Shown piece by piece: positions 15,250 through 32,578 of a DNA stretch of 64,000 nucleotides. Each line of letters begins with the position of its first letter. Position 1 is the stretch's first letter. This stretch comes from Cytobacillus oceanisediminis (GTDB lineage: Bacteria > Bacillota > Bacilli > Bacillales > Cytobacillaceae). The position numbers were made by a program, and so were the translations under genes. The notes beneath the pieces are model-generated. The model saw only the letters and a list, made by a program, of their open reading frames with translations. It was not told the origin of the DNA and did not search any database. The stretch covers positions 434,001-498,000 of the forward strand of contig NZ_SOEE01000003.1 in NCBI RefSeq assembly GCF_004366035.1, read 5' to 3'.

Positions 15250-15469
15250 TCATTCCTTTACTAGAAAATATATATTTTGTATTTTATCATGGGATGGGAT
15301 TTGGCAGCTATTTCTCTGATTTTGGTATTGCCATGAATATGTACCACGTTTATAAGGCTGTTTTCGTAAAGTTTGTTGTGATAGGAGTTCTCTTGCTGTT
15401 AAAATATGGTATGATATTTCAGCGAATTGAAAAATACTATAAAGAGTGGAACAGGAGAAGTGTGAAAAT

Positions 15470-15619
15470 ATGAGATTAAGAGACTTAACTCTTGATGAGC
15501 TTGAGGACCTTGAACAAGAATTACATGAAAACGGGGAACAAAGCAATTTCGGTTATTACGCCAAACTGGAATGTATGGGTGGTAACTTGAAAAATCCCCC
15601 CCCTTTCAAAAAGGGGGAA
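15470..15619 (+). pseudogene. Truncated paralogue of the TPR/winged-helix gene
   Basis: Starts with ATG and an AGGAG ribosome site. The first ~30 codons (LRDLTLDELEDLEQELHENG, then SNFGYYAKL) are clearly homologous to the N terminus of the gene at 12967. Homology stops near 15560, and about 17 unrelated codons (ending PPPFKKGE) run to a stop. The break coincides with the left edge of the defence island, so insertion or deletion probably removed the rest. Confidence 0.75.
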
Positions 15620-15709: not shown

Positions 15710-15812
15710 TTACTTAGCAAATACTGTTGGTGTTGTAAGGGCAGATGCAACAATCACCGGCCACCAAAATAGTGTTCCATTCCAGCCATGTTCTTTTGTT
15801 TTTTTTACCCAT
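15710..15812 (-). pseudogene. Possible small hydrophobic peptide gene with A8 frameshift
   Basis: From ATG at 15812 (minus), an A8 run puts the start out of frame with a sensible hydrophobic tail (HGWNGTLFWWPVIVASAL, then TTPTVFAK and stop). With seven A residues the peptide would be 33 aa. No good ribosome site is seen, so this is tentative. Confidence 0.3.
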
Positions 15813-16083
15813 CTTAATTTTTGAACAGGCTAACTGATATACTGTTACCATATGAACGGTATGTTAAGATTTTTTAGGGATGGAAAGGCAAATGGGGCAC
15901 TGGATTTTTCAAGGCAATCCGAAACAATTTGATGTTGATACATATATATATAAATGAAGTCGTAGATTGGAATATTCGACAAAAGCAATTTTCGGATGAG
16001 GTACAAGTTGGGGATAAGGTGTTCATTTGGAGATCGGATGGTGGCAATAAAAACACTGGAGGTGTTATTGCCTTTTGTGAAAT
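15806..16083 (+). repeat. Direct repeat, left copy (mcrB leader plus EVE-coding segment)
   Basis: About 278 bp nearly identical to 19306-19587, running from the promoter region (CTTAATTTTTGAA) through codon ~65 of mcrB. Several substitutions and a 2-bp deletion show that it is the older or unselected copy. The pair brackets the module at 16.1-19.3 kb. Confidence 0.85.
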
Positions 16084-16113
16084 AAAATTGTTTTCAATAA
16101 TAGGGCGTTTTTA
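15892..16113 (+). pseudogene. Truncated, frameshifted EVE-domain fragment of mcrB
   Basis: ATG-initiated copy of the first ~65 codons of the mcrB gene at 19393 (HWIFQGNPKQFDVDTYI; DEVQVGDKVFIWRSDGG). A 2-bp deletion near 15950 shifts the frame. Homology ends after GGVIAFCEI, and the frame closes shortly after in unrelated sequence. Non-functional. Confidence 0.85.
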
Positions 16114-16151
16114 ATTAATGGTAAAATACGGTAAAGTATAAAGGTTCTGAC

Positions 16152-16305
16152 TTAGTCTCTGAGTTTACAATCCACAAATGTATTAATTGTCTGTATCTCT
16201 TTTTCTGAAACTGCAGCATGTGTCGCATTTACAGTATTAAATCCACCTTTTCTTAGATCACAGCACCTGCTCCTTAGCCCAGAACTTGAAAATAAAAGTA
16301 GTTAA
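16152..16305 (-). pseudogene. Unidentified 3' gene relic
   Basis: On the minus strand about 50 sense codons (GLRSRCCDLRKGGFNTVN, then HAAVSEKEIQTINTF) end in TAA, with no start and a stop just upstream. The sequence looks like a genuine protein C terminus, but I do not recognise the family. The rest of 16114-16490 holds only the promoter of the next gene. Confidence 0.4.
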
Positions 16306-16490
16306 TGGGGAGGGTTAATTCGGAAATTAGCAGTCTCGGACGAAGAGGAATAATTAATAGAAAGGTTTCTGCAAGAGAACAAAAATGGTAATATCATGAA
16401 ATGGCAGCCTAGTAACCTTTACTAATTCCATCCATTACAAGATGATTGTAATAAAGGTTAATATAAATGTTATGGTAGGGGGGTATTTAA

Positions 16491-16919
16491 ATGAGCCAGA
16501 ATATATATGGTTCCCAAGAGAAGGAATTATCCTTGATAGAAGAAGCATTCGAATTATTACAAAATGCGGATATTGATGTTTCACTGGAAGATGTAAAAAA
16601 CCTTTTGCAATTTTCCCCTCATGTTAAGGAGTTATTTGTAAAGGCAACAGAATTGTCTCATAATTCTGGGCAAAATGTGTTTGACGTTATAAAAAAAGTT
16701 ATCTCAGTTTATGAAGAAGAGTTAAAGAGAGATGACCTTACGTTTGAACAAAGGACAGCCATTTATGACCGTATGGACAAACATGCTTTGAATGCAATGC
16801 AACAGGACGATAGTAATAAAAAATTTATTGGAGGAGCAATTGGTGTTGGAGTTGTAGCTTTAGTTGGCGGTGCAGTCAAATTTGGTCCTAAAATAGTTAA
16901 AGCTATGGTCAAAAAGTAA
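16491..16919 (+). CDS. Hypothetical protein with C-terminal glycine-zipper membrane segment
   Basis: 142 aa, not recognised. Residues 1-105 are acidic and helical (SLIEEAFELLQNADIDVSLEDV). Residues 109-136 form a glycine-rich hydrophobic helix (KKFIGGAIGVGVVALVGGAV) ending in a basic tail, so one membrane span with the helical domain outside it is likely. It has a strong GGGGGG ribosome site and its own terminator. Lying inside the defence island next to the Nmad3 gene, it could be a membrane effector or simply a passenger. Confidence 0.7.
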   Translation: MSQNIYGSQEKELSLIEEAFELLQNADIDVSLEDVKNLLQFSPHVKELFVKATELSHNSGQNVFDVIKKVISVYEEELKRDDLTFEQRTAIYDRMDKHALNAMQQDDSNKKFIGGAIGVGVVALVGGAVKFGPKIVKAMVKK

Positions 16920-17024
16920 AATAAACAATAACAAATTAGGGTAAATTCGTTATTTAATTATGGAAACTATCTCCTTAAATTACCGTATTTTTACATGCTC
17001 CAAGATTAATACATAATCAAAATT

Positions 17025-17070
17025 AAAATACCGTTTAGGGAAAAATTACCCAACGGTATTTTTTTTGTAT
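17025..17070 (+). terminator. Terminator of the hypothetical gene
   Basis: AAAATACCGTT / AACGGTATTTT stem with 16-base loop followed by a long T run. Confidence 0.8.
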
Positions 17071-17217
17071 AATTAACTTAAAGAATCAAGAAGAAAGGCG
17101 TATGACTGGTAAGAAGAAAAATGTGAATTTCTTTATGAAACTAACCTAGAGCTTTCCCGAAAGTTACTTTTTGATTTTAACCTGTACAATAAAAATAATT
17201 AAAGGCAGGTAATTGTT

Positions 17218-18399
17218 ATGAAATTAGTCCTTAGTAGAAAAGGGTTTGATTCCGGTAGCGGTGGATGTTTGTCTCCATATAACCATGAAACGGGGCAATA
17301 TATATGGTTTCCAATACCGGAAAAGGTCAATAGTTATTCAAATCAGATTCGATATCCAAATATACTCGTGAAAAATGAATATCTTAGTGGCCTAAATGGG
17401 TCTACTTTAAGTGAGGTGTATAAAAGTTTAAAGGGGACAGACCGTGTTAAGTTACGAAAAAATGAGTTCGCTTCCATTGATGATAATGAATTATTTGCTC
17501 ATTTCGATCCAATGCTGGGAATACCCCCTTGGATAGAAGAAAATGAAAAATTCAAAATCGGTAAGGGGTTTGGCCAATTCAATGCTGCACCTCATTTAGA
17601 GAAACACAATGTTAATGAAGGGTCTGTTTTTCTATTCTTTGGTGGGTTTCAGTCAACATCCCATAGAAAAATATCGGGCCACTATATATACGGGTGGCTA
17701 AAGATAAAGAAGAGAATAGAAACTTATAAGGAATGTAAAGAAATCATTGAACAATACAACCTCGACCATCATCCTCACATCTCAGAAGCCGCTTTTAATA
17801 GAAACCAGAAGAACTATATTTTTTTACCCGATAAATGGTTATTTGAAGATTTGAAAATTCCAGGCTGTGGTTATTTTACTACTCTAAATGATTCCTTATT
17901 GCTCTCAAGCAATAAGGAATCTAATAAAGCTACTTGGAAACTCCCAATCTTTTTTTATCAGAATCTTACACAGGTTCACCAAAAAACATGGCAACACACA
18001 CAAGATGGATTTTGTACAGTGAAGACAGGGATTGGGCAAGAGTTCGTTACACAGCTGTCAGCAAAAGGAGAAGAATGGTTCCGGGAGCTATTTGTGAAAA
18101 ATCAAAATAATATACACCGTCATGAAACGCCTGCAGCAAAGGGGAGGAGTAAAGAATTGGACTTTCAAGAGTATTTAATGCAGAAACATACACTTAAAAA
18201 AGGAGAAAGGAAGTTACAGCCCATTTCTGTAGAGCAATATATTAAAAGGCTAGAAAGTATGCGTCGCCATGGCATATATAACGAAGAAAATCTGATTGAC
18301 GATACCTTGGTTGGAAAAATCCAAGAACAATATAAGGAATGGAAGACATATTTGAAGACGGTGGAGCATTACTTAAACTATAAAACTATTATTCAATGA
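17218..18399 (+). CDS. Nmad3-type protein (nucleotide modification associated domain 3)
   Basis: 393 aa. The N terminus (MKLVLSRKGFDSGSGGCLSP) is the signature of the Nmad3 family, a predicted glycosidase/transferase-like domain found next to DNA-modification and restriction genes in phages and bacteria. Other family-like blocks are IPPWIEENEKFKIGKGFGQF, VFLFFGGFQ and GCGYFTT. The C-terminal ~90 residues are basic and helical. It is followed by a DUF6946 pseudogene and then the EVE-McrBC operon. A role in making or sensing a modified base is inference from the family name and the neighbours. The start has a GGCAGGT ribosome site. Confidence 0.75.
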   Translation: MKLVLSRKGFDSGSGGCLSPYNHETGQYIWFPIPEKVNSYSNQIRYPNILVKNEYLSGLNGSTLSEVYKSLKGTDRVKLRKNEFASIDDNELFAHFDPMLGIPPWIEENEKFKIGKGFGQFNAAPHLEKHNVNEGSVFLFFGGFQSTSHRKISGHYIYGWLKIKKRIETYKECKEIIEQYNLDHHPHISEAAFNRNQKNYIFLPDKWLFEDLKIPGCGYFTTLNDSLLLSSNKESNKATWKLPIFFYQNLTQVHQKTWQHTQDGFCTVKTGIGQEFVTQLSAKGEEWFRELFVKNQNNIHRHETPAAKGRSKELDFQEYLMQKHTLKKGERKLQPISVEQYIKRLESMRRHGIYNEENLIDDTLVGKIQEQYKEWKTYLKTVEHYLNYKTIIQ

Positions 18400-18429
18400 T
18401 AAATGAAAATATATATAGGGGATAAGCTA

Positions 18430-19141
18430 ATGGGCAATTACTTTATACCAACAAATGGTCCAGAATCATGGAGATAGTTCCTTGCAAACCCTGAAAAGCA
18501 GTCGAAGAATGGATATTCCGCTTATGAATTGGCTTATTGTAGGGAAAGAGCGACAAAATTGCCAGCTTGCGTTGATAGGGTACTCAAACAGAGTGAGTTA
18601 CCGGTATTCCAAAATGTAGAAGTATTGTTTGGATTTCCAGAGTATAAAGAGCCTTTACCTGGAGGAAGTGCAAGTTCCCAGAATGTTCTTTACGTCCTTG
18701 CGAAGTCAAATAATGAACTAATAACGATTATGGTGGAAGGAAAGGTCTTAGTTCCGTTTGGGGAAACTGTAGAAGCCTGGTTAGGTAATAATCCTAGTGA
18801 AGGGAAAAGAAAAGATTAGATTTCCTACTCGAAATATTGGGGTTACAGGAATCTCAAGTACTCAAAATAAAGGAACCAATTATTACATAGGGCTGCATTT
18901 GCAGTGATTGAAGCTACGAATATAACTGCCAAACATTCGCTTGTTCATTTCATTTAGTGAGACTGGAAAATGGTTTGACGACTATGAAGAGTTTGTAAAA
19001 CTATTTCATTTAACTCTAAAGAAGGACAGAATAGTTGGCCCAGTGCAACTACAAGGGAAGGAACTCTATTTTGGCTGGGTTATTAGTGTAAAAATAAAAT
19101 CAGCTGGATTGCCTGAAGAAAACTATTTGATAAAAAACTAA
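18430..19141 (+). pseudogene. DUF6946-like gene, amber stop and several frameshifts
   Basis: Begins ATG at 18430 with an AGGGGA ribosome site. Codon 16 is TAG (18475-18477) within SWR-stop-FLANPEK. The frame then runs through FPEYKEPLPGGSASSQN and VEGKVLVPFGETVEAWLGN, typical of the DUF6946 family. Indels near 18810, 18870 and 18950 move the remaining homology (LDFLLEILGLQ; LLHRAAFAVIEA; SFSETGKWFDDYEEF) between frames. The intact gene would have encoded about 235 aa. Family naming is from memory; the broken state is plain from sequence. Confidence 0.75.
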
Positions 19142-19272
19142 AATCGAAGAAAGTTCCCAAAAGATAGAGTTATGGTCAACAAAACGATTGCAGTTTGAGC
19201 CCAAGGGCTGGATGAACCGTACACACATAATGGCACAACACATCAAGCAATAAATGATATAAACGCAATGCT

Positions 19273-19306
19273 GCTACCCCCTTTCTATATAAGGGGGTAG
19301 CTTTTT
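19273..19306 (+). terminator. Terminator before mcrB
   Basis: Perfect 11-bp stem GCTACCCCCTT / AAGGGGGTAGC, seven-base loop, six T residues. It separates the DUF6946 relic from the mcrBC operon. Confidence 0.88.
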
Positions 19307-19587
19307 TACCCCTCTTAATTTTTGAAAGGGGTTAACTGGTATACTATTACCATAAGAAGCTATGTTAATATTTTTCGAGGAGGTACTGGCAAATGGGGAA
19401 CTGGATTTTTCAAGGCAATCCGAAACAATTTGATGTTGATACATATATAGAAAATAATGAAATCGTCGATTGGAATATACGGCAAAAGCAATTTTTGGAT
19501 GAGGTACAAGTTGGGGATAAGGTGTTCATTTGGAGATCGGATGGTGGCAATAAAAACACGGGAGGTGTTATTGCCTTTTGTGAAATT
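19306..19587 (+). repeat. Direct repeat, right copy (functional mcrB leader and EVE region)
   Basis: Matches 15806-16083 with scattered substitutions. It includes the likely promoter (TATACT near 19340) and the first ~65 codons of mcrB. Recombination between the copies would delete the Nmad3/DUF6946 module. Confidence 0.85.
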
Positions 19588-21855
19588 GTATCCGAGCCAT
19601 ACGAAGATGATGAAAACGATAAGGTTGATCTGAGAATTCTTGAGAAGCGACTGGCTCCTGATACTGGTATGCTATTACGTCATGAATTAAAAGAACTTCC
19701 TGAAATCACGAATTTAATGATCTTTAGAATGCCGCAAAACACGAACTACAGACTAACGGATGAAGAATTTGAACGCCTATACCAGCTATGGGAATCACCA
19801 GAGAAATTGGCTGAAAAACTAAATATGTCAATTGTTGAAAAATATCTTCATTTCTTTAAAGATCATGCTGAAAATTGGTTTGAAAACAACACGGATTACT
19901 TACAAGAAAGTTATCAATTTTTCAGTCATTTCAAGCAAAAAGACCATTTAAACACAATGGAATGGGAGGATGTGCAGGAGCTTGGTGAGCACATCAATTC
20001 TTTCAGGATGGCACTCGCTAAAAAAAGAGCTCTAGGAAATCCTAATGCATCCATTGAACATTACCGCAAAAGTTTTAACTATTTAATTCATGGAACAGAA
20101 CCGCTTAAAAGAAGAATGGATCAATTTGTCCATCATGAAGATTATAAGCTATTTGGCTTTGGGTATAGCGTGGTCAGTGAGCTTATAGGAAATATTTTTC
20201 CGGAAGAATTTTGCTTTTATAACCAGAGAGACCGAGTAGCGGCAGAAAATATACTCGAACTAACTCCTGGATATGCACGAGGAGATACATTTGGGGAAAA
20301 GTTCATCAAATTTCAGGAATGCCTAAAGGAAAATGGAATAGTGGAAAAGTACTTGGAGGTAGTTGGCAAACAAACCAGCCTTCCAATTTTCTATGAAATA
20401 GATCAATTTTTCAGCTATCTTTTTGAGAATTTTGGCAAGAAAGAAACTGTTATTGCAGAAGAAGAAACGATTCCTCAGTACTGGCTTTTGGCTGCTGGAG
20501 AAGGAAACTTCATGTGGGGGGATTTCAAGGAAAATGAGCATATTGCAATTGGGTGGGATGAATTAGGTGATTTAAAAGCTTATGGAAGCAAACGAGAAAT
20601 AATGGAGGCTTTAAAGGAGCTCTATGAAGTTGACTATAACCCAAGTAATGATGCACTCGCTAACTATCAGTTTGCCAACGAAATAAGTGTAGGTGATTAT
20701 GTACTTATTAAACGAGGGACACACAAGCTTATAGGTTACGGTAAAATTGTATCGGAATACAAATTTGATCCTGCAAGAGAATCTTTCAAATCATTAAGGA
20801 AAGTTGAGTGGATATCACTAGGAGAGTGGGATGTAGAAACACTTCATAATAAAACCTTAACAAACATCACACCATATGATGAGTACTTGGAAAGATTGCT
20901 TGCTTCTATTGGTAAAGAAGGAAAAACGGTATATCCAACCTCAGAGGATAATTCCTCATCAGTAAAGGAAAGTGAAAAGGAAACGATTCCTTACACACAT
21001 GAACAGCTTCTCAGTGAGGTATTCATGACACAAGATAAAGTGGAGGATATCCTTGAAACATTGGATTATAAAAAGAACATTATCCTACAAGGCCCACCAG
21101 GTGTTGGAAAAACATTTGTAGCCAAGCGCCTTGCTTATCTTCATATGGGAACAAAAGATGACAGCAAAGTGGAAATGCTGCAGTTCCACCAATCCTATTC
21201 ATATGAAGACTTCATTCGTGGATATAAGCCTAATACGCAAGGGCATTTTACTCTTAAAGATGGTATTTTCTATTCATTCTGTAAGAAAGCGATAGAAGAT
21301 CAGGATAACAATTACTATATGATTATTGATGAAATTAACAGGGGGAATCTATCCAAAATCTTTGGTGAGCTCATGATGTTAATCGAGGCAGACAAACGAG
21401 GTAATAAATTCGCGGTTAAGCTTGCATACAGCGAGGGAGAAGAAACCTTCTACATTCCTAAAAACCTTTACCTCATTGGAACCATGAACACTGCGGACAG
21501 ATCTTTAGCTTTGGTTGATTATGCATTAAGGAGAAGATTTTCCTTTATCAATTTAGAACCAGCTTTCCATACAGAGCAATTTCATGATTATTTAATCAAC
21601 AAGGGAATTAGCCAGGGATTTATTGACAAGCTTATTGCCGGCATTATGGACATCAATCAGGCAATTACAAATGACATGATTAATCTAGGTAAAGGTTATG
21701 AAATCGGTCATAGCTATTTCTGTCCAACAACAGAACAGGTAGATGATGAACAAAAATGGTATGAGCGAATCATTCGTCTGGAAATCGCTCCACTTTTAAG
21801 GGAATACTGGTTTGATCAGGAGGACAAAGTCAATGAACTCCTTGACAGACTCTAA
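19393..21855 (+). CDS. mcrB: McrB-type GTPase with N-terminal EVE domain (type IV restriction)
   Basis: 820-aa motor and reader subunit of a modification-dependent restriction system. Residues 1-135 form an EVE (PUA-like) domain (WIFQGNPKQFDVDTYIEN; VGDKVFIWRSDGG) expected to read modified bases. A helical linker domain (about 140-345) and a second EVE/PUA-like reader (about 355-510: YWLLAAGEGNFMWGDF, IAIGWDELGDL, VGDYVLIKRG) follow. The AAA+ domain (about 540-820) has Walker A GPPGVGKT, Walker B-type MIIDEINRGN and the McrB signature GTMNTADRSLA. Start ATG with GGAGG nine bases upstream. The end overlaps mcrC by 23 bases. Two reader domains in one McrB are notable. Confidence 0.9.
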   Translation: MGNWIFQGNPKQFDVDTYIENNEIVDWNIRQKQFLDEVQVGDKVFIWRSDGGNKNTGGVIAFCEIVSEPYEDDENDKVDLRILEKRLAPDTGMLLRHELKELPEITNLMIFRMPQNTNYRLTDEEFERLYQLWESPEKLAEKLNMSIVEKYLHFFKDHAENWFENNTDYLQESYQFFSHFKQKDHLNTMEWEDVQELGEHINSFRMALAKKRALGNPNASIEHYRKSFNYLIHGTEPLKRRMDQFVHHEDYKLFGFGYSVVSELIGNIFPEEFCFYNQRDRVAAENILELTPGYARGDTFGEKFIKFQECLKENGIVEKYLEVVGKQTSLPIFYEIDQFFSYLFENFGKKETVIAEEETIPQYWLLAAGEGNFMWGDFKENEHIAIGWDELGDLKAYGSKREIMEALKELYEVDYNPSNDALANYQFANEISVGDYVLIKRGTHKLIGYGKIVSEYKFDPARESFKSLRKVEWISLGEWDVETLHNKTLTNITPYDEYLERLLASIGKEGKTVYPTSEDNSSSVKESEKETIPYTHEQLLSEVFMTQDKVEDILETLDYKKNIILQGPPGVGKTFVAKRLAYLHMGTKDDSKVEMLQFHQSYSYEDFIRGYKPNTQGHFTLKDGIFYSFCKKAIEDQDNNYYMIIDEINRGNLSKIFGELMMLIEADKRGNKFAVKLAYSEGEETFYIPKNLYLIGTMNTADRSLALVDYALRRRFSFINLEPAFHTEQFHDYLINKGISQGFIDKLIAGIMDINQAITNDMINLGKGYEIGHSYFCPTTEQVDDEQKWYERIIRLEIAPLLREYWFDQEDKVNELLDRL

Positions 21856-22867
21856 AATACCAATTAAAAACCTATACTATATGCTTTGTTATGCATGGGG
21901 GCATCTTGCGGAGAAAGACATGGCCGATGTAGCCCGTGAAGATGAGAAGGACATTAAGCACCTTTTAACAAGAATTCTCCTTGTAAAGCTCCGCTCACTC
22001 ATCAAGCGGGGCTTTTACCGGGAATATAAATCCTATCAGAAGGAAACAGGAACATTAAAAGGGAGGATCCTCTTTCAGGATTCAATCAATACGTTTTCTT
22101 TTAAAAAAGGCAAAATGCACTGTGAGTTTGAAGAAATGAACCATGGTATTGTTCATAATTAGGTTATTAAGTCAACTTTATTCTCCTTACTGCAAAACCA
22201 GGAGCTAGATAAACTTTTAAAAGAAGAGATTCAGCAGCTGTATCCATACTTTGCTGAGGTTGCAGTCATTAAGTTAAATCTGAGAATCTTTCAGGAGATT
22301 AAATTGCATAGAAGTAACCAGCACTATCGTTTTGTACTAGACATCTGCCGTTTTCTTTATGAATCATTGCTATTAAACGAGGACAATGTAGAATTCCAAT
22401 TTGCTGATTTTGAAAGGGATCCAAAGGCTATGGCTCGTTTATTTGAAGAATTTGTGCGTAACTTTTACAAAAAGGAAATGCCAGAATATAGGGTGTATCG
22501 TGAAAATATTTATTGGGATGCTGAGGGGGAAGAGACTAGTTACCTTCCTATAATGCAAACGGATATTTCTCTTGAGAGTAATGACCGGAAGATTATTATG
22601 GATACGAAGTATTATCAGCATACTTTTACCCAAAATTTTGGCTCGCAGAAATTGATAAGCGGAAATTTGTATCAGCTGTTTGCTTATTTAAGTAATCATA
22701 AGAAGTCGGAAGGGAAAGAAATAACGGGCATGCTCCTTTATCCCAAAACTGGCAAGGAATTGATGTTAGCTTATAGAATTAAAGAGTTTTCAGTAAAGAT
22801 CAATACTGTTGATTTGAACCGCGATTGGTTAAGCATTCATACAAGGTTGAAAGAAATTGTAAGTTAA
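21833..22867 (+). pseudogene. mcrC: McrC nuclease subunit interrupted by one in-frame amber codon
   Basis: One 345-codon frame encodes a McrC-type protein: N-terminal KIPIKNLYYMLCYAWG, central IYWDAEGEETSYL and the PD-(D/E)XK core MQTDISLES...KIIMDTKYYQ. Codon 110 is TAG (22160-22162, context HN-stop-VIKS). Both sides are in the same frame and otherwise look intact, so a single substitution explains the break. Start 21833 with AGGAGG nine bases upstream, inside mcrB. Without readthrough the system lacks its nuclease and would not cut. Confidence 0.88.
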
Positions 22868-23002
22868 AATCCTAAGAATGGTAGAGAATTTATGTTGTTA
22901 GATTATAGGGAATATGGAGTTATCAGTAAGAATCAATACTATTGAATTGAGTAGAATTTGTTTAAGTATTCAAACAGTTTAAAAGAAATTGAAAGTTAAA
23001 AT
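22751..23002 (+). repeat. Degenerate tandem duplication of the mcrC 3' end
   Basis: 22751-22870 (the last codons of mcrC) and 22878-23002 align with many substitutions and small gaps. Shared blocks are TTATCAGTAAG/TTTTCAGTAAAG, AATCAATACTATTGA/GATCAATACTGTTGA and AAAGAAATTG-AAGTTAAAAT. The second copy has no coding capacity. It suggests that a second, divergent mcrC once lay here. Confidence 0.65.
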
Positions 23003-23298: not shown

Positions 23299-23323
23299 AG
23301 AAAATATAGAAGGGGTGGTATGT

Positions 23324-26300
23324 ATGATAAAACCAAATTGGGATGTATTCAAAGCAAAATTTAGCGATAACCCTCAGAATAATTTTGAATGGCTTTGTTA
23401 CTTGCTGTTCTGTAAGCAATTTAATAAGGACTATGGAATATTTAGATATAAGAATCAGTCAGCAATAGAAACAAATCCTATTGAAGTTAATGATGATGTA
23501 GTTGCGTGGCAAGCAAAGTTCTATGAAACTCCACTTTCTAATCATAAAAATGATTTAGAGGATACATTAAATAAATTAAAGAGAGATTATCCAAATGTGA
23601 ATAGATTGCATATCTACTCAAATCAGGAGTGGGGACAAAACAAGGGACAGATGCCTCAAGGGCTAAAAGATATTGAAAAACTAGCAAAAGAATTAGATGT
23701 TAGGTTGGAGTGGAATTTAGCAAGTTTTTTTGAATCTGAATTTGTTACAGTAAAAAATGATATTATTTCGAAGCACTTTTTTACGTTTGAAAAAAGCATA
23801 TTCACAATATTAGAAGAAATGCGAGAACATAGTGATAATCTATTGAAATACATAAGCACGGACATCTCTTTCAACGATAAAAAATTTGAAATTGAAAAAG
23901 AGCATGAATTGAATCAACTTATCGTCGGTTCTAATCAAGTATGTATTATCAGTGGTGTTGGCGGGGTTGGAAAAACTGTCTTAGTAAAAAAAATGTATGA
24001 ACGTTATGCAGAAGGTGAACCATTCTATATCTTTAAGGCAACAGAGTTTGAGCTTAGAAATATTAATGATATGTTTGGTGATTTCAGTATGAGTGATTTT
24101 CTTGGTGTTCATAAAGACTTAGAGCACAAGACAATAGTAATTGATTCTGCGGAAAAATTATTAGATTTAAGGAATACTGACCCTTTTAAAGAGTTATTAT
24201 CAGCAATCGTTGAAGATAACTGGAAAGTAATTTTTACGACTAGAGATGCCTATCTTAAAGATCTTAACTATCAGTTTTTCGAAATTTATAAAATTGCTCC
24301 TTTAAATATTGGGATACGCCCTTTGGAACAGCATGAATTAACCACTATAGCTAGTGAAAATTCTTTTACTCTACCTAAGGATAAGAAATTATTAGAATTG
24401 ATAAGGAATCCTTTCTATTTAAATGAATATTTGAAATTCTACAAAGATATTGATGAAATTGATTATGTTGAATTTAAGTCAAAATTGTGGGAGAAAAGAA
24501 TAAAAAAAAGTAAGCCTGAAAGAGAAAAATGTTTCTTAAAAATTGCATCTCAAAGGGCGAATACAGGTCAATTTTTTGTTGATGTAAAAGCTGAGTTAGG
24601 TAGTCAATGTGATGAATTAATGCAAGATGGAATGATAGGCTATGAGGACATGGGCTATTTCATATCTCATGATATTTATGAAGAATGGGCATTAGAGAAA
24701 ATTATTAATAAAGAGTTCGCTAATAGGTCTGATGAACATGGATTTTTTGCTTCAATTGGCGAATCGCTACCAATAAGAAGGTGTCTACGAAACTGGATGT
24801 CAGAGAAATTATTACTTGAAGACTATGAGATTGTAGAATTCATTGAAGAAACTATTAAAAATGATGAGGTTGAATCCTTTTGGAAAGATGAGTTATTTGC
24901 ATCAGTTTTACTTTCAGATTATTCAAGAACTTATTTCAAAGTTTTTAAGAATGAACTATTGTTAGATGATTGTAGGCTACTGAAAAGGCTAACTTTCATC
25001 TTACGAATTGCATGTAAAGAGGTAGATGATGAATTCTTCTCACAATTAGGCATAAAAGATATAAATATCTTTACTCTGGAACACATTCTAACAAAGCCAA
25101 AGGGAATCGGCTGGGAGGCATTAATCGAGTTTGCTTACGAGAACATAGAAATAATCGGAATTGAAAATATTAATTTTATTTTGCCTATAATTAATGATTG
25201 GAATGACAAAATCAAAAGGGGAAATACTACTAGATGTGCTGGTCTAATTGCTCTGAAGTTTTATCAAAATACTATTCATAGAGATGCTTACTATTCTCGG
25301 GATGATACTCTAGAAACTATTCTTAAGACAATTATTAATGGCTCATATGAGTTGAAAAACGAATTGAAGGATATCATAACGGAAATACTAAGCAATGAAT
25401 GGAAAAATCACAGAGACCCTTATTATGATTTATCTAAGTTTATTTTGACAAAGCTTGATGGTTTACCTGTCTGTAAAGTATTACCTGATGAAATTTTAGA
25501 ATTAGCTGATTTTTATTGGACTTATACACCAAAAGAAAACCAATTGTTTTCGAGCTGGAGAGATGATGTCGAACATGATTTTGGTATTGAAAAAGATTAT
25601 ACAGATTATCATCCTGCTAGTGCTTTTCAAACTCCTATTTATTGGCTGCTCCAGATTAAACCCAAAGCAACTATGGACTTCATAGTAAGTTTTACAAATA
25701 AATCTGTAAAGAAGTATGTGTCTTCAAATCTGGCTACTAGACTTGATACGATAACTGAAGTTGAAGTTAAATTAAGTGATAAAAGTCAGAAAAAGCAGTA
25801 CATTAGTCAGTGTTTGTGGGAGATTTACAGAGGGACGAGTTCTCCAGTAAGTCCTAACTTGTTGCAATCTGTTCATATGGCTTTAGAAAAGTTTCTTCTA
25901 GAAATAGCAGAGAGAATGAAAAACGAAGTGTTGGTCAGTTGGTTGAATTATTTACTGGAAACTTCTGAAAGTGCCTCAATTTCATCAGTAGTTACAAGTG
26001 TTGTATTAGCAAATCCAGAAAAAACATTTGACACTGCAAAAATATTATTTGGAACTAAAGAATTCATCATTCATGATACTCATAGATTGGCTTCTGAACA
26101 AGGTGCTAAGACACTATATTCAATAGGGGGAAATTGGGGTATTAGCAAAAGTAGTTTTTATGATAATGAGAGATTGAAAACGTGTGAAGATAAGCATCGG
26201 AAATGGAGTTTAGAAAGCCTCTGCTTAAACCATCAAGTTTTTGCAATGCAAGAATCAGAAGAAGATGAGGCGAAGAAACGTCAAGAAATTCTATGGGGTA

Positions 26301-27841
26301 TTCTAGATGATCACTATAAAAAACTACCACCAGACTCAGAGCAGAACGAAAGAGATAAGACCTGGAGATTGTTTTTAGCTAGAATGGATAGGCGAAAAAT
26401 GAATATTAGTACTGAAGAAACTGATGGTGGCATATTGATACAGTTTGAACCTGAGATAGAACCAGAAATAGATAAGTTTAGAGAGGAAAATCAAAGAGAA
26501 TACAACGAACATACGAAGTATATTCCTTTAAAGTTATGGGCTGATTTCAAATTTAAAAATGATGAAAAATCTAAGGAATATGAGAAGTATGATAGTAATC
26601 CCCTAATTGCATTAGGTGAAGCTAAAGAAATATTAGAAAGACTTAATGAGTGTTACAATCCAGATTTACCTCAGGTAACACGCGCTGAAAATGAGAAATT
26701 CTATTTATTTAATTACCAAATACCATCATGTGTATGTGTGATATTAGTTGAGCATTATATCGATAAATTGAATGATGAAGATAAAGAGTTTTGTAAGGAC
26801 GTTATAATTGCAAAAGTGAATTCGTGCGTGAAGCCAAATTATATCTATCAAATAGGGGATGGTGTACAGGAAGCGATTGCTTCATTACCAAAACTGATGA
26901 GATTATATCCTAAAGAAAAAGAAACAATAAAACAAGTGCTTTTACTTATACTACTTAAGGATGAATCTGTTGGAGGAATTATATCATCTGAAAGATTCAA
27001 CGTTTTTTCTATGATTGCGATTCATAAAATGTGGGAAAAAGAATTTGAGGATGCTCATTCATTGCTATTGGGTTATCTAGTATTAAAGCACAAATATAAT
27101 GAGTTAATAAGTGAAATTCGAAGAGAGAACTTTGAAAATGGGGTTTACGAAGCTGATTTAGGAGAGTTGTTAAACAGATTTTTAGCTGCAAACGAGATGA
27201 GTCTGAAAAAGATGGTTGCTAATGAGTTTTCAATTTCGGATTTAGGCAATATTCAAGAGCTTGATTTGTCTATATTATCCAATGCTCTTAAAATCATGCC
27301 TAGTAAATTAGAGCATACAGAACATATTGCCATTACACATGAGATAATTGCTGTGTTTGCAAGAGAGCTAACGCAAGGTAGAGATGTTGATAAAGTAGAT
27401 TACATGGTACGTAATGAATTTTTGAAAAAATATGCTTATCTTGTTCTAAATTCTGAAAGGAGTGAAGTACCACTATTGATCCAACCCTTTATCGATAACT
27501 TCAACTCATCAGAACCAATAGCAGAGATGTTACAAGAATTTATTTATGCTGAAGATAGAATACAAAGTTATAATAATTTTTGGTTAGTATGGAATCAATT
27601 CAAAGATAAAATAGTTGAAGTAACTAATTATGGAAGCTGGTATGTAGACAAAATTATTAAAAGTTACCTATTTGCACAAACAAGATGGAACGATTCTACT
27701 AAAGAATGGAATTCATTAAAATCAACTAATATGAGATTGATAAAGGATGTATCTGAGCAGATAGGTCAACATCCTGCGGTTTTATATTCAATCTCTAAAC
27801 TGTTGAATGATACGGGAGTCCGTTTGTTGCTGATGGAGTAA
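23324..27841 (+). CDS. Avs-like STAND NTPase with N-terminal nuclease domain (C terminus frameshifted)
   Basis: 1505-aa protein with the layout of antiviral STAND (Avs) proteins. Residues 1-150 look like a Mrr/PD-(D/E)XK nuclease (FEWLCYLLFCKQF; NDDVVAWQAKFYE). An NTPase core follows at about 205-400 (Walker A SGVGGVGKTVL near residue 210, Walker B TIVIDSAEK near 268, sensor-like VIFTTRDAY). The remaining ~1100 residues are helical repeats, the usual phage-protein sensor. In Avs4-type relatives such proteins recognise a phage portal and then degrade DNA. The TAA at 27839-27841 follows a probable 1-nt deletion near 27819; the next frame continues as a coherent C terminus to 28065. ATG 23324 has AAGGGG eight bases upstream. 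Confidence 0.8.
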   Translation: MIKPNWDVFKAKFSDNPQNNFEWLCYLLFCKQFNKDYGIFRYKNQSAIETNPIEVNDDVVAWQAKFYETPLSNHKNDLEDTLNKLKRDYPNVNRLHIYSNQEWGQNKGQMPQGLKDIEKLAKELDVRLEWNLASFFESEFVTVKNDIISKHFFTFEKSIFTILEEMREHSDNLLKYISTDISFNDKKFEIEKEHELNQLIVGSNQVCIISGVGGVGKTVLVKKMYERYAEGEPFYIFKATEFELRNINDMFGDFSMSDFLGVHKDLEHKTIVIDSAEKLLDLRNTDPFKELLSAIVEDNWKVIFTTRDAYLKDLNYQFFEIYKIAPLNIGIRPLEQHELTTIASENSFTLPKDKKLLELIRNPFYLNEYLKFYKDIDEIDYVEFKSKLWEKRIKKSKPEREKCFLKIASQRANTGQFFVDVKAELGSQCDELMQDGMIGYEDMGYFISHDIYEEWALEKIINKEFANRSDEHGFFASIGESLPIRRCLRNWMSEKLLLEDYEIVEFIEETIKNDEVESFWKDELFASVLLSDYSRTYFKVFKNELLLDDCRLLKRLTFILRIACKEVDDEFFSQLGIKDINIFTLEHILTKPKGIGWEALIEFAYENIEIIGIENINFILPIINDWNDKIKRGNTTRCAGLIALKFYQNTIHRDAYYSRDDTLETILKTIINGSYELKNELKDIITEILSNEWKNHRDPYYDLSKFILTKLDGLPVCKVLPDEILELADFYWTYTPKENQLFSSWRDDVEHDFGIEKDYTDYHPASAFQTPIYWLLQIKPKATMDFIVSFTNKSVKKYVSSNLATRLDTITEVEVKLSDKSQKKQYISQCLWEIYRGTSSPVSPNLLQSVHMALEKFLLEIAERMKNEVLVSWLNYLLETSESASISSVVTSVVLANPEKTFDTAKILFGTKEFIIHDTHRLASEQGAKTLYSIGGNWGISKSSFYDNERLKTCEDKHRKWSLESLCLNHQVFAMQESEEDEAKKRQEILWGILDDHYKKLPPDSEQNERDKTWRLFLARMDRRKMNISTEETDGGILIQFEPEIEPEIDKFREENQREYNEHTKYIPLKLWADFKFKNDEKSKEYEKYDSNPLIALGEAKEILERLNECYNPDLPQVTRAENEKFYLFNYQIPSCVCVILVEHYIDKLNDEDKEFCKDVIIAKVNSCVKPNYIYQIGDGVQEAIASLPKLMRLYPKEKETIKQVLLLILLKDESVGGIISSERFNVFSMIAIHKMWEKEFEDAHSLLLGYLVLKHKYNELISEIRRENFENGVYEADLGELLNRFLAANEMSLKKMVANEFSISDLGNIQELDLSILSNALKIMPSKLEHTEHIAITHEIIAVFARELTQGRDVDKVDYMVRNEFLKKYAYLVLNSERSEVPLLIQPFIDNFNSSEPIAEMLQEFIYAEDRIQSYNNFWLVWNQFKDKIVEVTNYGSWYVDKIIKSYLFAQTRWNDSTKEWNSLKSTNMRLIKDVSEQIGQHPAVLYSISKLLNDTGVRLLLME

Positions 27842-28690: not shown

Positions 28691-29398
28691 TTACCTGCCT
28701 AACCCATGACGCTCACGCATAGAAACTTCTCCATCTAGTAGAATTTGATAGGAGTCATGAATAATACGATCTAAGATTGCTTCCGCAATCGTTTCATTTC
28801 CTAGCTTTAAATGCCATCCACTAGGATCAATCTGTGAACAGAATATAGTGGACCCCACCTTATGACGAGCTTCTGTAATTTCCAAGAGGATTGCTGCTTC
28901 ATCCGTTGTTAAATCTGTTAATAGCCACTCATCTAGGATAAGGAGGTCTACTTTCGTATATTTTTTTATGCTCTTCCGATAACTTCCGTCTGCTGCTAAT
29001 TTAGCGAGTGACAGCTCATTCAGTAATTCTGGTAACCGAATATATTTAACGTTAAAAACTGCCGACAAGCAGATACTCCGAAGGCAGTAGCTAAGAATGA
29101 CTTTTCTGAACCAGTAGGTCCTTTTAATATAATGTTGTGACTATCCAGAATATAAGTACAACTAGCAAACTTCAAAATCAACTCTTTGTTTAGTCTTCGA
29201 TCCTCATGATATTCTAGGTCTTCAATACAAGCATTGGAGTTAAGAAAAGTCGCAGTCTTGATTAGGCGTTGAAGCTTATTACTCTTTCTGCGGGCATGTT
29301 CTAAATCGACAAGTAAACTAAATCGATCTTGAAAGTTATTTTTGAAATTCTTTATTCGCTGCTTGTTCCTTATAGGCTTCTGCCATTGTAATTTGCAT
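28691..29398 (-). pseudogene. istB: IS21-family IstB transposition ATPase, frameshifted
   Basis: From ATG 29398 (minus), the sequence reads an IstB-like helicase-loader: N-terminal AEAYKEQAANKEFQ, ARRKSNKLQRLIK, Walker A-like GPTGSEKSF, Walker B LLILDEWLL, and the hallmark end DPSGWHLKLGN...RIIHDSY...SMRERHG. Frameshifts near 29335 and 29055 break it. The P-loop has Glu where GxxGxGKS needs Gly, a second sign of decay. No istA or clear IS ends were found, so this is a relic. Confidence 0.85.
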
Positions 29399-29689
29399 GA
29401 AAAATTTGTTTACTCTTATAAAATTTTACATATATTATATTTAGATCATTAAAACGATTCCAACCACCGGTATCAGAAGGATCATTTTAGCCAGTTTAAA
29501 TAATTTAAATGCAATTGCATGAGCTTATTTCAAATAGAAAAATTAATAATCTACAATTAAATACCACCCGCAACAATATAGTGTGTGGTATTTTGTCAAG
29601 ATTTTCTTATATGAAATTACTCCCTCCTACTCAATATCATCTAAATGCCTTACAATAATGGTAATGATATACAGGAGGGAATAACTAAC
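29399..29689. other. Intergenic region upstream of the PLD-helicase
   Basis: Contains a stem AATACCAC/GTGGTATT with a T run (29560-29594) that could be a terminator. On the minus strand there is a short hydrophobic reading stretch (AKMILLIPVVGIVLM) without a start codon. No supported gene; the helicase promoter should lie near 29600-29670. Confidence 0.4.
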
Positions 29690-32578
29690 ATGTCAACTTT
29701 CATCAAAAGTTTAGAAGATTCCTTGTATAAAGGATTTATTGATCAAGATAGGATAATCAAGGGTAAGTATCCTCCTAAATTACTAGTGAATAATAGTAAT
29801 AAAAATGAGTATGTATTAAATTCGATACACGAAGAGCTAGAGCAATGTGAATCATTTATTTTTTCTGTTGCTTTTATTACAGAAAGTGGGTTAGCAACTT
29901 TAAAGTCCTATTTATGGGATCTTAGGCAAAAAGGGATTGGAGGGCGTATTTTGACATCTACTTTTCTAAGCTTTAATCATCCTAAAGTTTTTAGGGAATT
30001 AATGAAGATTGAAAATGTAGAGGTTAGATTAACGGATATAAAAGGTTTCCATTCAAAGGGATATATCTTTAAACAAAAAACCCATTTTTCTTTAATAGTA
30101 GGAAGTTCTAACTTAACTTCTAATGCATTAAAGGTGAATTACGAATGGAATGTAAAGCTGACCTCACATGAAAATGGAGAATTCATTCACCATTTTCAGC
30201 AGCAATTTGAGGATGTCTGGGGAAAGGCATCACCGCTCACTGAGAATTGGATTAATCGCTATGAGGAATTGTATACGCCTTTGGTAAACAGTAAGATTAT
30301 TGATCGAATTGGAGAAGCTTCTTCTCAATATGCTGGCAATGCGATTGAGGATGCACTTAAAATCATTCCAAATAAAATGCAGCAAGCTGCCTTGGAACAA
30401 ATTCAAGCTTTAAGAGGGGAAGGCAAGCAAAAAGGATTAATTATATCTGCAACTGGTACAGGTAAAACATATTTGTCTGCATTTGATGTACGGAGGTTTA
30501 CTCCTAAACGAATGCTTTTTATCGTCCATCGTGAACAAATATTAAATAAAGCAAAGGAAGACTTTAGAAGGATCCTTGGTGGTCTTGAAGAAGACTTTGG
30601 TATTCTTTCTGGTACGACTCGTCAAAAGAATGCTAGATATTTATTTGCTACAATACAATCAATCTCTAAAGAAGAGCACTTGTCTTCGTTTGCTAAAGAT
30701 CACTTTGAATATATTTTAATAGATGAGGTACATAAAGCGGGAGCAGGCTCTTACCAAAAAGTTATGGAGTACTTTACTCCTCAATTTATGATGGGAATGA
30801 CTGCAACTCCGGAACGAACAGATCATTTTAACATCTTTGAGCTATTTGATTATAACATTGCATATGAGATTCGTTTACAGGAGGCACTTGAAGAAGATAT
30901 GCTTTGTCCCTTCCATTACTTTGGTGTAACTGACTTTGAGTATGATGGGAAATTAATTGATGATGCTTCAAAATTGAGTGAATTGGTAACAGAAGAACGA
31001 GTTAAGCATATTATTGATAAAATTAATTATTATGGTGCTTCTGGAGAAAAGGTCAGAGGGCTAATGTTTTGTAGTCGTAAGGATGAAGCAAAAGAATTAT
31101 CCCTCTTGCTAAATGAAAAAGGCTTCAATACCGTCGTATTGACAGGAGAGGATTCCCAGGAAGAGAGAGAAGGGAGGGTAAATCAATTAGAAGCTGGCAC
31201 AATCGATTATATTCTTACTGTCGATATATTCAATGAGGGAATTGATATTCCGAGTATAAATCAAGTCGTGATGCTAAGACAAACGAAATCAAGTATAATT
31301 TTTATTCAGCAATTAGGTAGGGGATTACGCAAACACGATACTAAAGAGTTTGTTACTATCATTGATTTTATTGGTAACTATAAAAGTAACTTTTTAATAC
31401 CTATTGCTCTCTCAGGTGATAAATCTGTAAATGAAGATACAACACGCAGATATACTAAAAATACCAGTTTTATTAAGGGAGTTTCAACGGTTAACTTTGA
31501 AGAGGTAGCAAGGAAAAGAATTTTTGATGCAATTAATGATATGGGATCCCAGACAAAAAGGTTATTAAAGGATGCTTATTTAGAATTAAAGAATAAGATT
31601 GGCCGCGTTCCAAAATTAGTTGATTATAGAACCTATAACTCAATCGATCCAAATGTAATTATTAATGAATATGCAACTTACCCTAAATTTTTAAAGATAG
31701 TAGATAAGATTTCTACAAGTTTTTCTGAATACGAATTAAAAGTGATTAGTATGCTGTCAATCGAAGTGATGAATGGCAAAAGACTCCATGAGATTATCTT
31801 GTTAAAAGAAATATTATTAAATGGGGAAATAACCGTTCAAGACTACCTGAATGTCTTAAAAGAGAATAACTGCTATGTTGACGAAAATACTTTAAAATCC
31901 GTTGAGCGTATATTTAACTTATCCTTTTTTACAAAAACGGACCAAGCTAAATATGGTGAAGAAGAAATTATTGTATTGGAAAACGGAAGCTATAAATTCG
32001 GAGAAAAAACAAACAATTCCATTATTAACAATAAGGAATTTGAATTACATTTACGTGATATTTGTGATACTGCGTTCGAGATTAGTAAAAGATACATTAG
32101 TAATGAGCCATTAAAGCTGTACGAAAAATACTCGAAAAAAGACGTGTGTAGGCTATTAAATTGGGAGAATGATGAAAAAGGAACTATGTATGGGTATAAA
32201 ACAAAGCACGGTACTTGCCCTATCTTTATCACTTACCATAAAGATGAATCAGTTGAGGCGAGCATTGCCTACGAAGATGCTCTCATTAATCAAGAGACAC
32301 TACTGTGGTTTTCTAGAAATAGCCGCGTGATTGAATCGAAAGAATTGCAGCCGATTATTCATGCTGAGGAACGAGGTATTGAAATTCATATCTTTATAAA
32401 AAAAGACGATGATGAAGGTACAGATTCATACTATCTCGGAAAAGCTTCACCTATTATTGACACTGTCACACAAACAACCATTAATACTGACAATGGGGAA
32501 AAACCAATAGTCAATATGAATATGATCATGGAAACCCCAGTTGAATATAATATGTATAAATACCTTACTGCTGAATAA
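29690..32578 (+). CDS. PLD-nuclease/SF2 helicase/DUF3427 protein
   Basis: 962 aa. The N-terminal ~190 residues form a phospholipase D-like domain with the HKD-type motif HSKGYIFKQK and GSSNLTSNAL. A DEAH-family SF2 helicase follows, with motif I ATGTGKT, DEVH in LIDEVHKAG, GMTATPERTD and motif VI QLGRGLRKHD. The C-terminal ~330 residues look like DUF3427 (YSKKDVCRLLNWENDEKGTM). Such proteins are common in defence islands, often beside a NUDIX gene as here, but their mechanism is not established. ATG 29690 has AGGAGGG ten bases upstream; extension to 29645 has none. Confidence 0.88.
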   Translation: MSTFIKSLEDSLYKGFIDQDRIIKGKYPPKLLVNNSNKNEYVLNSIHEELEQCESFIFSVAFITESGLATLKSYLWDLRQKGIGGRILTSTFLSFNHPKVFRELMKIENVEVRLTDIKGFHSKGYIFKQKTHFSLIVGSSNLTSNALKVNYEWNVKLTSHENGEFIHHFQQQFEDVWGKASPLTENWINRYEELYTPLVNSKIIDRIGEASSQYAGNAIEDALKIIPNKMQQAALEQIQALRGEGKQKGLIISATGTGKTYLSAFDVRRFTPKRMLFIVHREQILNKAKEDFRRILGGLEEDFGILSGTTRQKNARYLFATIQSISKEEHLSSFAKDHFEYILIDEVHKAGAGSYQKVMEYFTPQFMMGMTATPERTDHFNIFELFDYNIAYEIRLQEALEEDMLCPFHYFGVTDFEYDGKLIDDASKLSELVTEERVKHIIDKINYYGASGEKVRGLMFCSRKDEAKELSLLLNEKGFNTVVLTGEDSQEEREGRVNQLEAGTIDYILTVDIFNEGIDIPSINQVVMLRQTKSSIIFIQQLGRGLRKHDTKEFVTIIDFIGNYKSNFLIPIALSGDKSVNEDTTRRYTKNTSFIKGVSTVNFEEVARKRIFDAINDMGSQTKRLLKDAYLELKNKIGRVPKLVDYRTYNSIDPNVIINEYATYPKFLKIVDKISTSFSEYELKVISMLSIEVMNGKRLHEIILLKEILLNGEITVQDYLNVLKENNCYVDENTLKSVERIFNLSFFTKTDQAKYGEEEIIVLENGSYKFGEKTNNSIINNKEFELHLRDICDTAFEISKRYISNEPLKLYEKYSKKDVCRLLNWENDEKGTMYGYKTKHGTCPIFITYHKDESVEASIAYEDALINQETLLWFSRNSRVIESKELQPIIHAEERGIEIHIFIKKDDDEGTDSYYLGKASPIIDTVTQTTINTDNGEKPIVNMNMIMETPVEYNMYKYLTAE

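Follow-up and report, generated by a model that had tools for sequence, protein, structure and literature searches.

We analysed a 64,000-nucleotide stretch of Cytobacillus oceanisediminis DNA (contig NZ_SOEE01000003.1, positions 434,001 to 498,000; hereafter the window), in which an EVE-type mcrBC restriction operon stands beside an Nmad3 gene and a decayed gene of the DUF6946 family. The site is probably a defence island in which mcrBC was repeatedly replaced by other copies through recombination, with operon ends left behind as scars, and in which a separate unit, Nmad3–DUF6946, lies between the scars and would act in modification-dependent restriction. An initial annotation of this DNA had read the same genes as one modification-sensing restriction locus that gained a module by duplication of the mcrB head. 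Below, G000 denotes the genome of the window, other G numbers the genomes of relatives and L numbers fetched loci or contig stretches. The features on which the argument turns are the following, with positions counted in the window.

15801–16083, + strand: c1, mcrB leader and first ~65 codons, frameshifted; read as the scar of another mcrB head, group A
17218–18399, + strand: Nmad3 gene, 393 amino acids (aa), intact; PF18754 match, E 1.7e-39
18448–19086, + strand: DUF6946 pseudogene; PF22187 match with three TGA, four TAG and one TAA inside; a conserved Asp reads Val (by eye)
19276–19392, + strand: mcrB leader, comprising a hairpin-plus-T-run and leader
19302–19586, + strand: c2, the repeat copy that starts the intact mcrB; group B head
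19393–21855, + strand: mcrB, 820 aa, intact; EVE domain, middle region, second EVE-like domain, AAA+
21833–22867, + strand: mcrC, with an in-frame TAG at 22160–22162; PF10117 matches both halves
22869–22999, + strand: decayed mcrC 3′ end, read as the scar of an older, G035-type mcrBC; alignment score 91, where shuffled sequence reached 35 at most

First, the two genes between the scars recur as a pair. Both family assignments made in the initial annotation held: the Nmad3 protein matches its domain over the full length, with the invariant motifs, and the PF22187 match is broken by eight stops, although one open piece of it (18529–18819) alone gives E 7.5e-27. The gap between the genes is 30 bp in the window. 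Intact copies of both, overlapping by 4 bp, are found in Robertmurraya siralis (L114, 6745–8684) and in a record named Bacillus methanolicus DE0196 (L113). Flanks around DUF6946 loci were taken for 8 kb or up to the contig end; the L113 stretch (8 kb on each side) and the L114 stretch (only 3 kb rightward) contain no McrB. The two loci are nearly identical at the pair, and window Nmad3 is 81% identical to its full-length relatives there. An operon-like Nmad3–DUF6946 pair thus recurs in two lineages only, the window and L113/L114. The overlap and the narrow gap support the earlier suggestion that the two genes belong together and, judged from gene order and sequence, Nmad3–DUF6946 appears to be a separate two-gene unit, distinct from the McrBC beside it.

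The nuclease of this unit would be DUF6946. Nineteen columns were invariant in 60 sequences of the family (W13, A34, W37, P44, P69, E70, S82, D85, E102, G103, K104, E107, F109, R128, Y148, Q149, H152, F176 and W217), among them the D..(D/E)xK residues D85, E102 and K104, which are conserved in 60 of 60. A structural model with a predicted local distance difference test score (pLDDT) of 93 placed a helix at 45–53, strands at 63–73, 82–92 and 95–104, helices at 123–136 and 148–163 and a strand at 168–175; a helix, three strands, helices and a strand is the order expected of the PD-(D/E)XK core. Foldseek searches gave weak rows that included PaqCI, BamHI, an XisH-family protein, the fdxN excision controlling factor, MGME1, Dna2 and TDP2 among the first 17 in PDB. 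In BFVD the rows, none better than E 0.005, included entries for restriction enzymes, Cas4 and ORF20/UL24, which are PD-(D/E)XK proteins. Two points weigh against the assignment: TDP2, which has another fold, accounts for nine of those first 17 PDB rows, and no Foldseek match in PDB or BFVD fell below E 0.001. Searching PDB by sequence returned nothing convincing for DUF6946 (best E 0.52). Membership of DUF6946 in a nuclease clan is already published, its Pfam authors assigning PF22187 to CL0236 (PMC10584680), and our model-based analysis supports it. The window copy itself should be unable to act, with its internal stops and its Asp-to-Val change.

The family also varies in architecture. DUF6946 proteins of nine Bacillales loci (L110, L111, L115, L116, L118, L119, L123, L124 and L126) carry alike C-terminal extensions of ~145 aa, with no Pfam hit in L110 and L115, the two scanned; L112 and L117 have different extensions. 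DUF1643 and DUF6946 are fused in one frame in G041 (L077, 9897–11267), and a gene of the uracil-DNA-glycosylase superfamily directly follows DUF6946 in an Anaerolineae metagenome-assembled genome (L142, 2980–3456). An annotation table of marine toxin–antitoxin pairs includes a HigB-1/DUF6946 pair (PMC12654330).

Next, the Nmad3 protein ends in a separate small domain of about 80 residues (~307–389), which we call NCT. Our main survey covered 101 genomes, G000 counted in, and searched them for the c2 head, EVE-McrB, Nmad3 and DUF6946. The Nmad3 domain proper was found in G000 and G085, and three further genomes matched NCT only. NCT stands alone upstream of DUF6946 in G019, L111, L116 (1.1 kb away) and L117 (0.4 kb), with a broken-up match in L109; it also occurs without DUF6946, as in G055, G082 and G005 (no DUF6946 hit in five loci checked), and is therefore not a strict DUF6946 partner. 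We had considered the pieces upstream of DUF6946 in G018 and G019 as Nmad3 remnants and rejected this, as tblastn did not detect the body of Nmad3 at these places and the piece is readable as an independent small gene. In G055, an NCT-like domain alone (L242, 8947–9165) lies 240 bp upstream of a gene of 1497 aa whose start resembles, by eye, a sacsin/HSP90-type ATPase. Nmad3 in the viral contig L198 (758–2068) has a tail of ~165 aa that is HNH-like by eye; Pfam detects Nmad3 only.

That Nmad3 reads DNA is a guess, since it is drawn from the family name, the context and weak fold hints. Several Foldseek rows for Nmad3 were to PUA-like proteins, namely ATP sulfurylase, ASCH, PH0355 and PH1033. 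In the viral contig L202 Nmad3 is followed by DUF1643, in L203 an N6/N4 methylase precedes it, and a GmrSD-type gene adjoins Nmad3 in L100 and, as an N-terminal domain plus HNH, DUF6946 in L161; such a context fits a reader. Against it stand the middling model (pLDDT 72), the insignificance of those Foldseek rows (E 0.28 and above) and a profile comparison in which Nmad3 did not match EVE (0.2% by hhalign). PDB searched by sequence gave no match for Nmad3 and a best E of 0.77 for NCT. DefensePredictor names an NMAD domain in legends of validated and predicted systems (PMC13092281).

How regularly the two families meet was examined in several collections. A genome scan yielded 325 relatives of DUF6946, and the 80 loci kept from it comprise the 19 best Bacillales loci (L109–L126 and L128) and 61 others (L127 and L129–L188, with the Bacillales loci L149 and L155 among these). 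In a single-sequence search Nmad3 adjoined DUF6946 in only two of the 80, nearly identical to each other, which weighs against a general partnership. Six Nmad3 loci from other genomes (L078 and L096–L100) had no DUF6946 in the fetched stretches. Among plasmid records, Nmad3 matched in two and DUF6946 in eight, and the five of these eight that were viewed had no Nmad3 in the fetched stretches. A phylum-wide sample of 397 other genomes contained Nmad3 in five, DUF6946 in one and both in none. From viral contigs, the Nmad3 alignment retrieved eight loci, the DUF6946 alignment nine and a single Nmad3 protein none. Window Nmad3 and G019 DUF6946 had no match in a phage collection and none to a PADLOC or NCBIfam model at E ≤ 0.01, and full-text searches of open-licence papers listed none on the pair, the three that mention Nmad3 being judged unrelated from their titles.

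Two further readings of the pair are each possible, though neither is likely. DUF6946 may be a free-standing nuclease or toxin, with Nmad3 an occasional neighbour that does not cooperate: Nmad3 is missing from 78 of the 80 loci and from the plasmid records viewed, and the neighbours of DUF6946 are unlike one another among the loci listed. The 4-bp overlap in L113/L114, the same gene order in the window and NCT upstream of DUF6946 in G019, L111, L116, L117 and, broken up, L109 speak against this. Alternatively, and as tentatively, the pair could be an undescribed two-gene modification-dependent restriction system, in which a PD-(D/E)XK nuclease, DUF6946, works with interchangeable readers or adaptors: Nmad3 together with NCT, NCT by itself, or DUF1643 as in the fused G041 frame. 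The surrounding site would then record island turnover, with cassettes swapping through shared mcrBC ends.

We then turned to the operon itself. Pfam placed EVE at residues 3–131 of McrB (E 9.9e-14) and AAA_5 in the same protein (E 4.1e-24), so that both the AAA+ motor and the fused reader domain of an McrBC type IV restriction system are present; the NCBIfam McrB profile NF008457 scored 359 bits, under its equivalog cut-off of 637. The second reader domain claimed by the initial annotation, at about residues 356–505, had no Pfam EVE hit, and its profile matches that of the first EVE (hhalign 71%, E 3.6e-5), the other 14 pairs among the six compared profiles reaching 0.7% at most; McrB thus has one EVE domain by Pfam and a second, EVE-like one by profile comparison. 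The window mcrC is 90.7% identical to the intact G006 McrC and carries one stop, and thus does not encode an intact McrC nuclease; mcrC is intact in five of the six relatives examined and frameshifted in the sixth, G003 (L068, 12294–13324), a second species with a broken mcrC beside an intact mcrB. A host C5-cytosine methylase was considered as the cause of mcrC loss and discarded, as the PF00145 pattern does not fit: among genomes with a broken mcrC it is present in G000 and absent from G003, and among those with an intact one it is present in G009, G024 and G035 and absent from G006 and G011. In the mcrB of G035, an inverted piece of ~75–114 bp lies in the EVE-coding part (L073, 10114–10364), with residues ~37–74 on the opposite strand and the remaining mcrB behind it; this micro-inversion breaks the EVE reader domain.

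The mcrB head is present twice in the window. In the local alignment of c1 and c2, 258 positions are identical, 23 are mismatched and 6 letters stand against gaps; its score of 423, against 29 for the best of 200 shuffles, confirmed the repeats earlier placed at 15806–16083 and 19306–19587. A genome search at E ≤ 0.001 found the repeat at two places in G000 and no third. The module does lie between the copies; that they bracket it exactly was too loose, as 407 bp separate the end of c1 from the first gene of the module. A repeat of 280 bp is long for the short target-site duplication of a transposon and speaks against that origin.

Comparison with relatives indicated that the copies were not made from each other at the site. 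The c2 head matched in 14 of the 101 genomes, G000 included. In G006 and G011, too, there is a broken head besides that of mcrB, and the cargo between the two is different: from start to start, scar and mcrB are 3.5 kb apart in G000, 8.3 kb in G006 and 28 kb in G011, and the genes between are unlike. G013 and G004 have a head piece and no full mcrB, and G027 a leader piece. Across 22 informative columns of the head alignment, a gap counting as a letter, eight split the G000 c2, G006 c1 and G009 heads (group B) from the G000 c1, G006 c2, G003, G024 and G011 c2 heads (group A); none joins the two G000 copies alone, one joins them together with G009 and one joins the two G006 copies. The approximately unbiased (AU) test rejected the genome's own copies as sisters in both G000 (P = 0.00136) and G006 (P = 0.00068). 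In the head tree, group B also takes in the broken pieces of G011 and G013; for the G011 piece the tree is the only basis of the assignment. Hence G000, G006 and G011 each have one group A and one group B head, and the intact mcrB has a B head in G000 and an A head in G006 and G011. The local duplication of the mcrB head proposed in the initial annotation, c2 into c1, is therefore unsupported: c1 and c2 belong to different head groups and are rejected as sisters, and broken heads precede other cargo in G006 and G011.

Last, the opposite end of the operon carries a scar of its own. The end of the G035 mcrC continues directly into the flank that in the window starts after 22999. The tail scars of G000 and G011 cluster with the G035 mcrC end (86/92), a tree that pairs the G000 scar with the mcrC beside it is rejected (P = 0.0066), and G006 retains only the last bases of the scar. 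The mcrBC of G035 belongs to a divergent lineage. The simplest history suggested by these sequences is that a G035-type mcrBC was first at the site and was replaced by the present type, with the tail of the older copy surviving; the direction of replacement is the inferred part. The c1 head is 67% identical to the G035-type head and 92–93% to group A. With c1 unlike the G035-type head, a tail scar of G035 type and a group B head on the present mcrB, the site records three or more mcrBC lineages or head types. The earlier proposal that recombination within mcrB or next to it reshaped a restriction or defence locus thus gains support.

Several observations weigh against repeated replacement. The heads give a short alignment, and bootstrap support stays below 95 on every branch of the tree built from it. 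A tree of the mcrBC body disagrees with the head groups (G009 joins G003 and G024 at 90/95, and G000 with G009 has P = 0.059); because the body does not follow the heads, mcrB heads seem to recombine independently of it, and a 'group-A copy' may be group A in its head only. Moreover, the scars of G000 and G006 belong to different groups and stop at the same mcrB point, 19586 and 19585 (the G006 scar lies at L066 6047–6353), which random replacement leaves unexplained. If mcrBC had instead been duplicated in tandem long ago in the genus, and different species had since lost one copy or the other (reciprocal loss, with no repeated arrival), this would fit that shared end point, the one A and one B head in each of G000, G006 and G011, and the position of the scars beside a uvrC-like gene in G000 and G006. 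We nevertheless regard such a duplication as unlikely: the broken copy on the left belongs to group A in G000 and to group B in G006 and G011, single heads are found in G003, G024 and G009, and the tail scar comes from a third, G035-type lineage.

The shared end point, like the leader kept in c1, would also suit a c1 that is more than a scar: it could function as a leader or a truncated EVE piece, or be a favoured breakpoint that anchors recombination. G009 has an mcrB leader alone (L067, 16265–16343; 82 bp, 83% identical) 160 bp upstream of a gene that PADLOC calls 'HKD+Snf2'; it looks as though an old mcrB leader now precedes, and may drive, another defence gene. We consider this role for c1 improbable, as c1 is frameshifted and scar similarity extends to 19876 in G011 and to 19616 in G013, so that there is no one fixed scar end. 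Repeated replacement of mcrBC remains our preferred account.

Does the pair work with the operon beside it? Counting as a full carrier any genome with one match spanning at least 80% of EVE-McrB, we found ten among the 101 (G000, G003, G006, G009, G011, G024, G035, G090, G094 and G100). DUF6946 occurs in seven, and the two sets overlap in G000 only, with ~0.7 expected (calculated by hand). Under a broad criterion, any McrB match at E ≤ 0.001 with AAA-only matches counted too, McrB is found in 46 of 101 genomes and in three of the seven DUF6946 carriers (G000, G051 and G070). Linkage to McrBC was thus absent as a rule, the outcome that the initial annotation had named as refuting its proposal, and the survey does not bear out the proposal that Nmad3 and DUF6946 work with EVE-McrBC. 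A McrB or a type IV enzyme lies within 8 kb of DUF6946 in 5 of the 19 best Bacillales loci (McrB in three, a type IV enzyme in four), in 1 of the 61 others and in none of 20 random stretches, which were drawn from seven relatives of G000 rather than from the genomes that carry the DUF6946 loci. Such neighbourhood counts are the pattern of genes that share a defence island; they favour a putative role of DUF6946 in Bacillales defence and do not argue for one machine with McrBC. A single modification-sensing locus of Nmad3, DUF6946 and EVE-McrBC, its module gained by mcrB head duplication, is thus very improbable and on the genomic evidence largely refuted, as the adjacency in the window, the Filobacillus locus L112 (DUF6946, then after 431 bp a full EVE-McrB, then McrC) and the McrB-like genes within 8 kb of DUF6946 in L122 and L126, which would fit defence-gene clustering too, are set against the single overlap, the intact pair without McrB in its stretch and a c1 that is not the sister of c2.

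The surroundings of the unit were examined as well, and contain the following features.

15453–15567, + strand: second TPR-like gene fragment, a scar (the tetratricopeptide-repeat, TPR, label is given by eye)
16491–16919, + strand: hypothetical gene of 142 aa, no Pfam hit above cut-off; occurs apart from the rest of the module
23315–27841, + strand: Avs4, an island neighbour outside the unit; PADLOC Avs4 2126.6 bits, NCBIfam NF041815 1908 bits (cut-off 1500)
28691–29068, − strand: piece of an IstB helper gene of IS21 type, lying between the genes for Avs4 and the type IV enzyme; a mobile-element trace
29645–32578, + strand: homologue of a type IV methyl-directed restriction enzyme, a neighbour; PADLOC PDLC03658, E 8.1e-289

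As Avs4 and the type IV methyl-directed restriction enzyme lie downstream, the region is, on its predicted gene content, a defence island. The TPR-like fragment matches, at 87.8% identity, the beginning of a similar gene in G032 (L211, 10345–10459), and 98 bp of it are also found in G013 (L072). G032 further carries the 142-aa gene, 88–89% identical, 572 bp behind a divergent McrB and a gene that is McrC-like by eye; its genome has no match to the Nmad3 protein or DUF6946. With the 142-aa gene in G032 lacking the pair, and the pair in the L113 and L114 stretches lacking McrB, the idea that the module was gained as one piece is not upheld.

On the history we favour, a G035-type mcrBC would have occupied the site first, the present copy and one with a group-A head would both have arrived later, and the exchanges would have run through homologous mcrBC ends. 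Between the scars, the Nmad3 protein would bind modified or foreign DNA and DUF6946, as a nuclease of the PD-(D/E)XK clan, would cut the same DNA. Neither system is expected to cut in this strain, because the DUF6946 nuclease is dead and McrC is interrupted. The site would then be a readable record of the in-place replacement of a restriction locus, in which ends of lost mcrBC copies survive as scars and the order of lineages is testable; if this is true, restriction cassettes replace each other through shared mcrBC ends. Setting the recurrent Nmad3–DUF6946 unit apart from the adjoining McrBC lets a joint role, as reader and nuclease, be put to the test for two families of unknown function, with an intact pair named in Robertmurraya siralis.

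EVE-McrB is well described (PMC7641849; 2024, PMC11090510), and EVE-McrB/McrC is the most common EVE architecture in defence and abundant in Firmicutes (Bell et al. 2020, PMC7641849). The window resembles such type IV restriction in its EVE fused to a McrB AAA+ motor with mcrC downstream, and differs in the second EVE-like domain mid-protein, the interrupted mcrC and the scars of other copies around it. DUF6946 matches its family, PF22187, and the D..ExK pattern is present in intact relatives; the window copy, however, is a pseudogene with Asp changed to Val, and pairing with Nmad3 is absent from the portion of PMC10584680 considered here. Nmad3 shares with PF18754 the full-length domain match and the invariant motifs, but has an extra C-terminal domain of ~80 aa that is also found as a gene of its own, and its partner is a nuclease gene. 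Avs4 (AVAST type 4) has a full-length homologue in the same island and is a separate system. GmrSD-type and other reader-plus-nuclease systems couple a reader of DNA modification with a nuclease; the proposed logic of Nmad3–DUF6946 is alike, and GmrSD-type genes adjoin DUF6946 in L161 and Nmad3 in L100, whereas the unit itself is built without a GmrSD domain.

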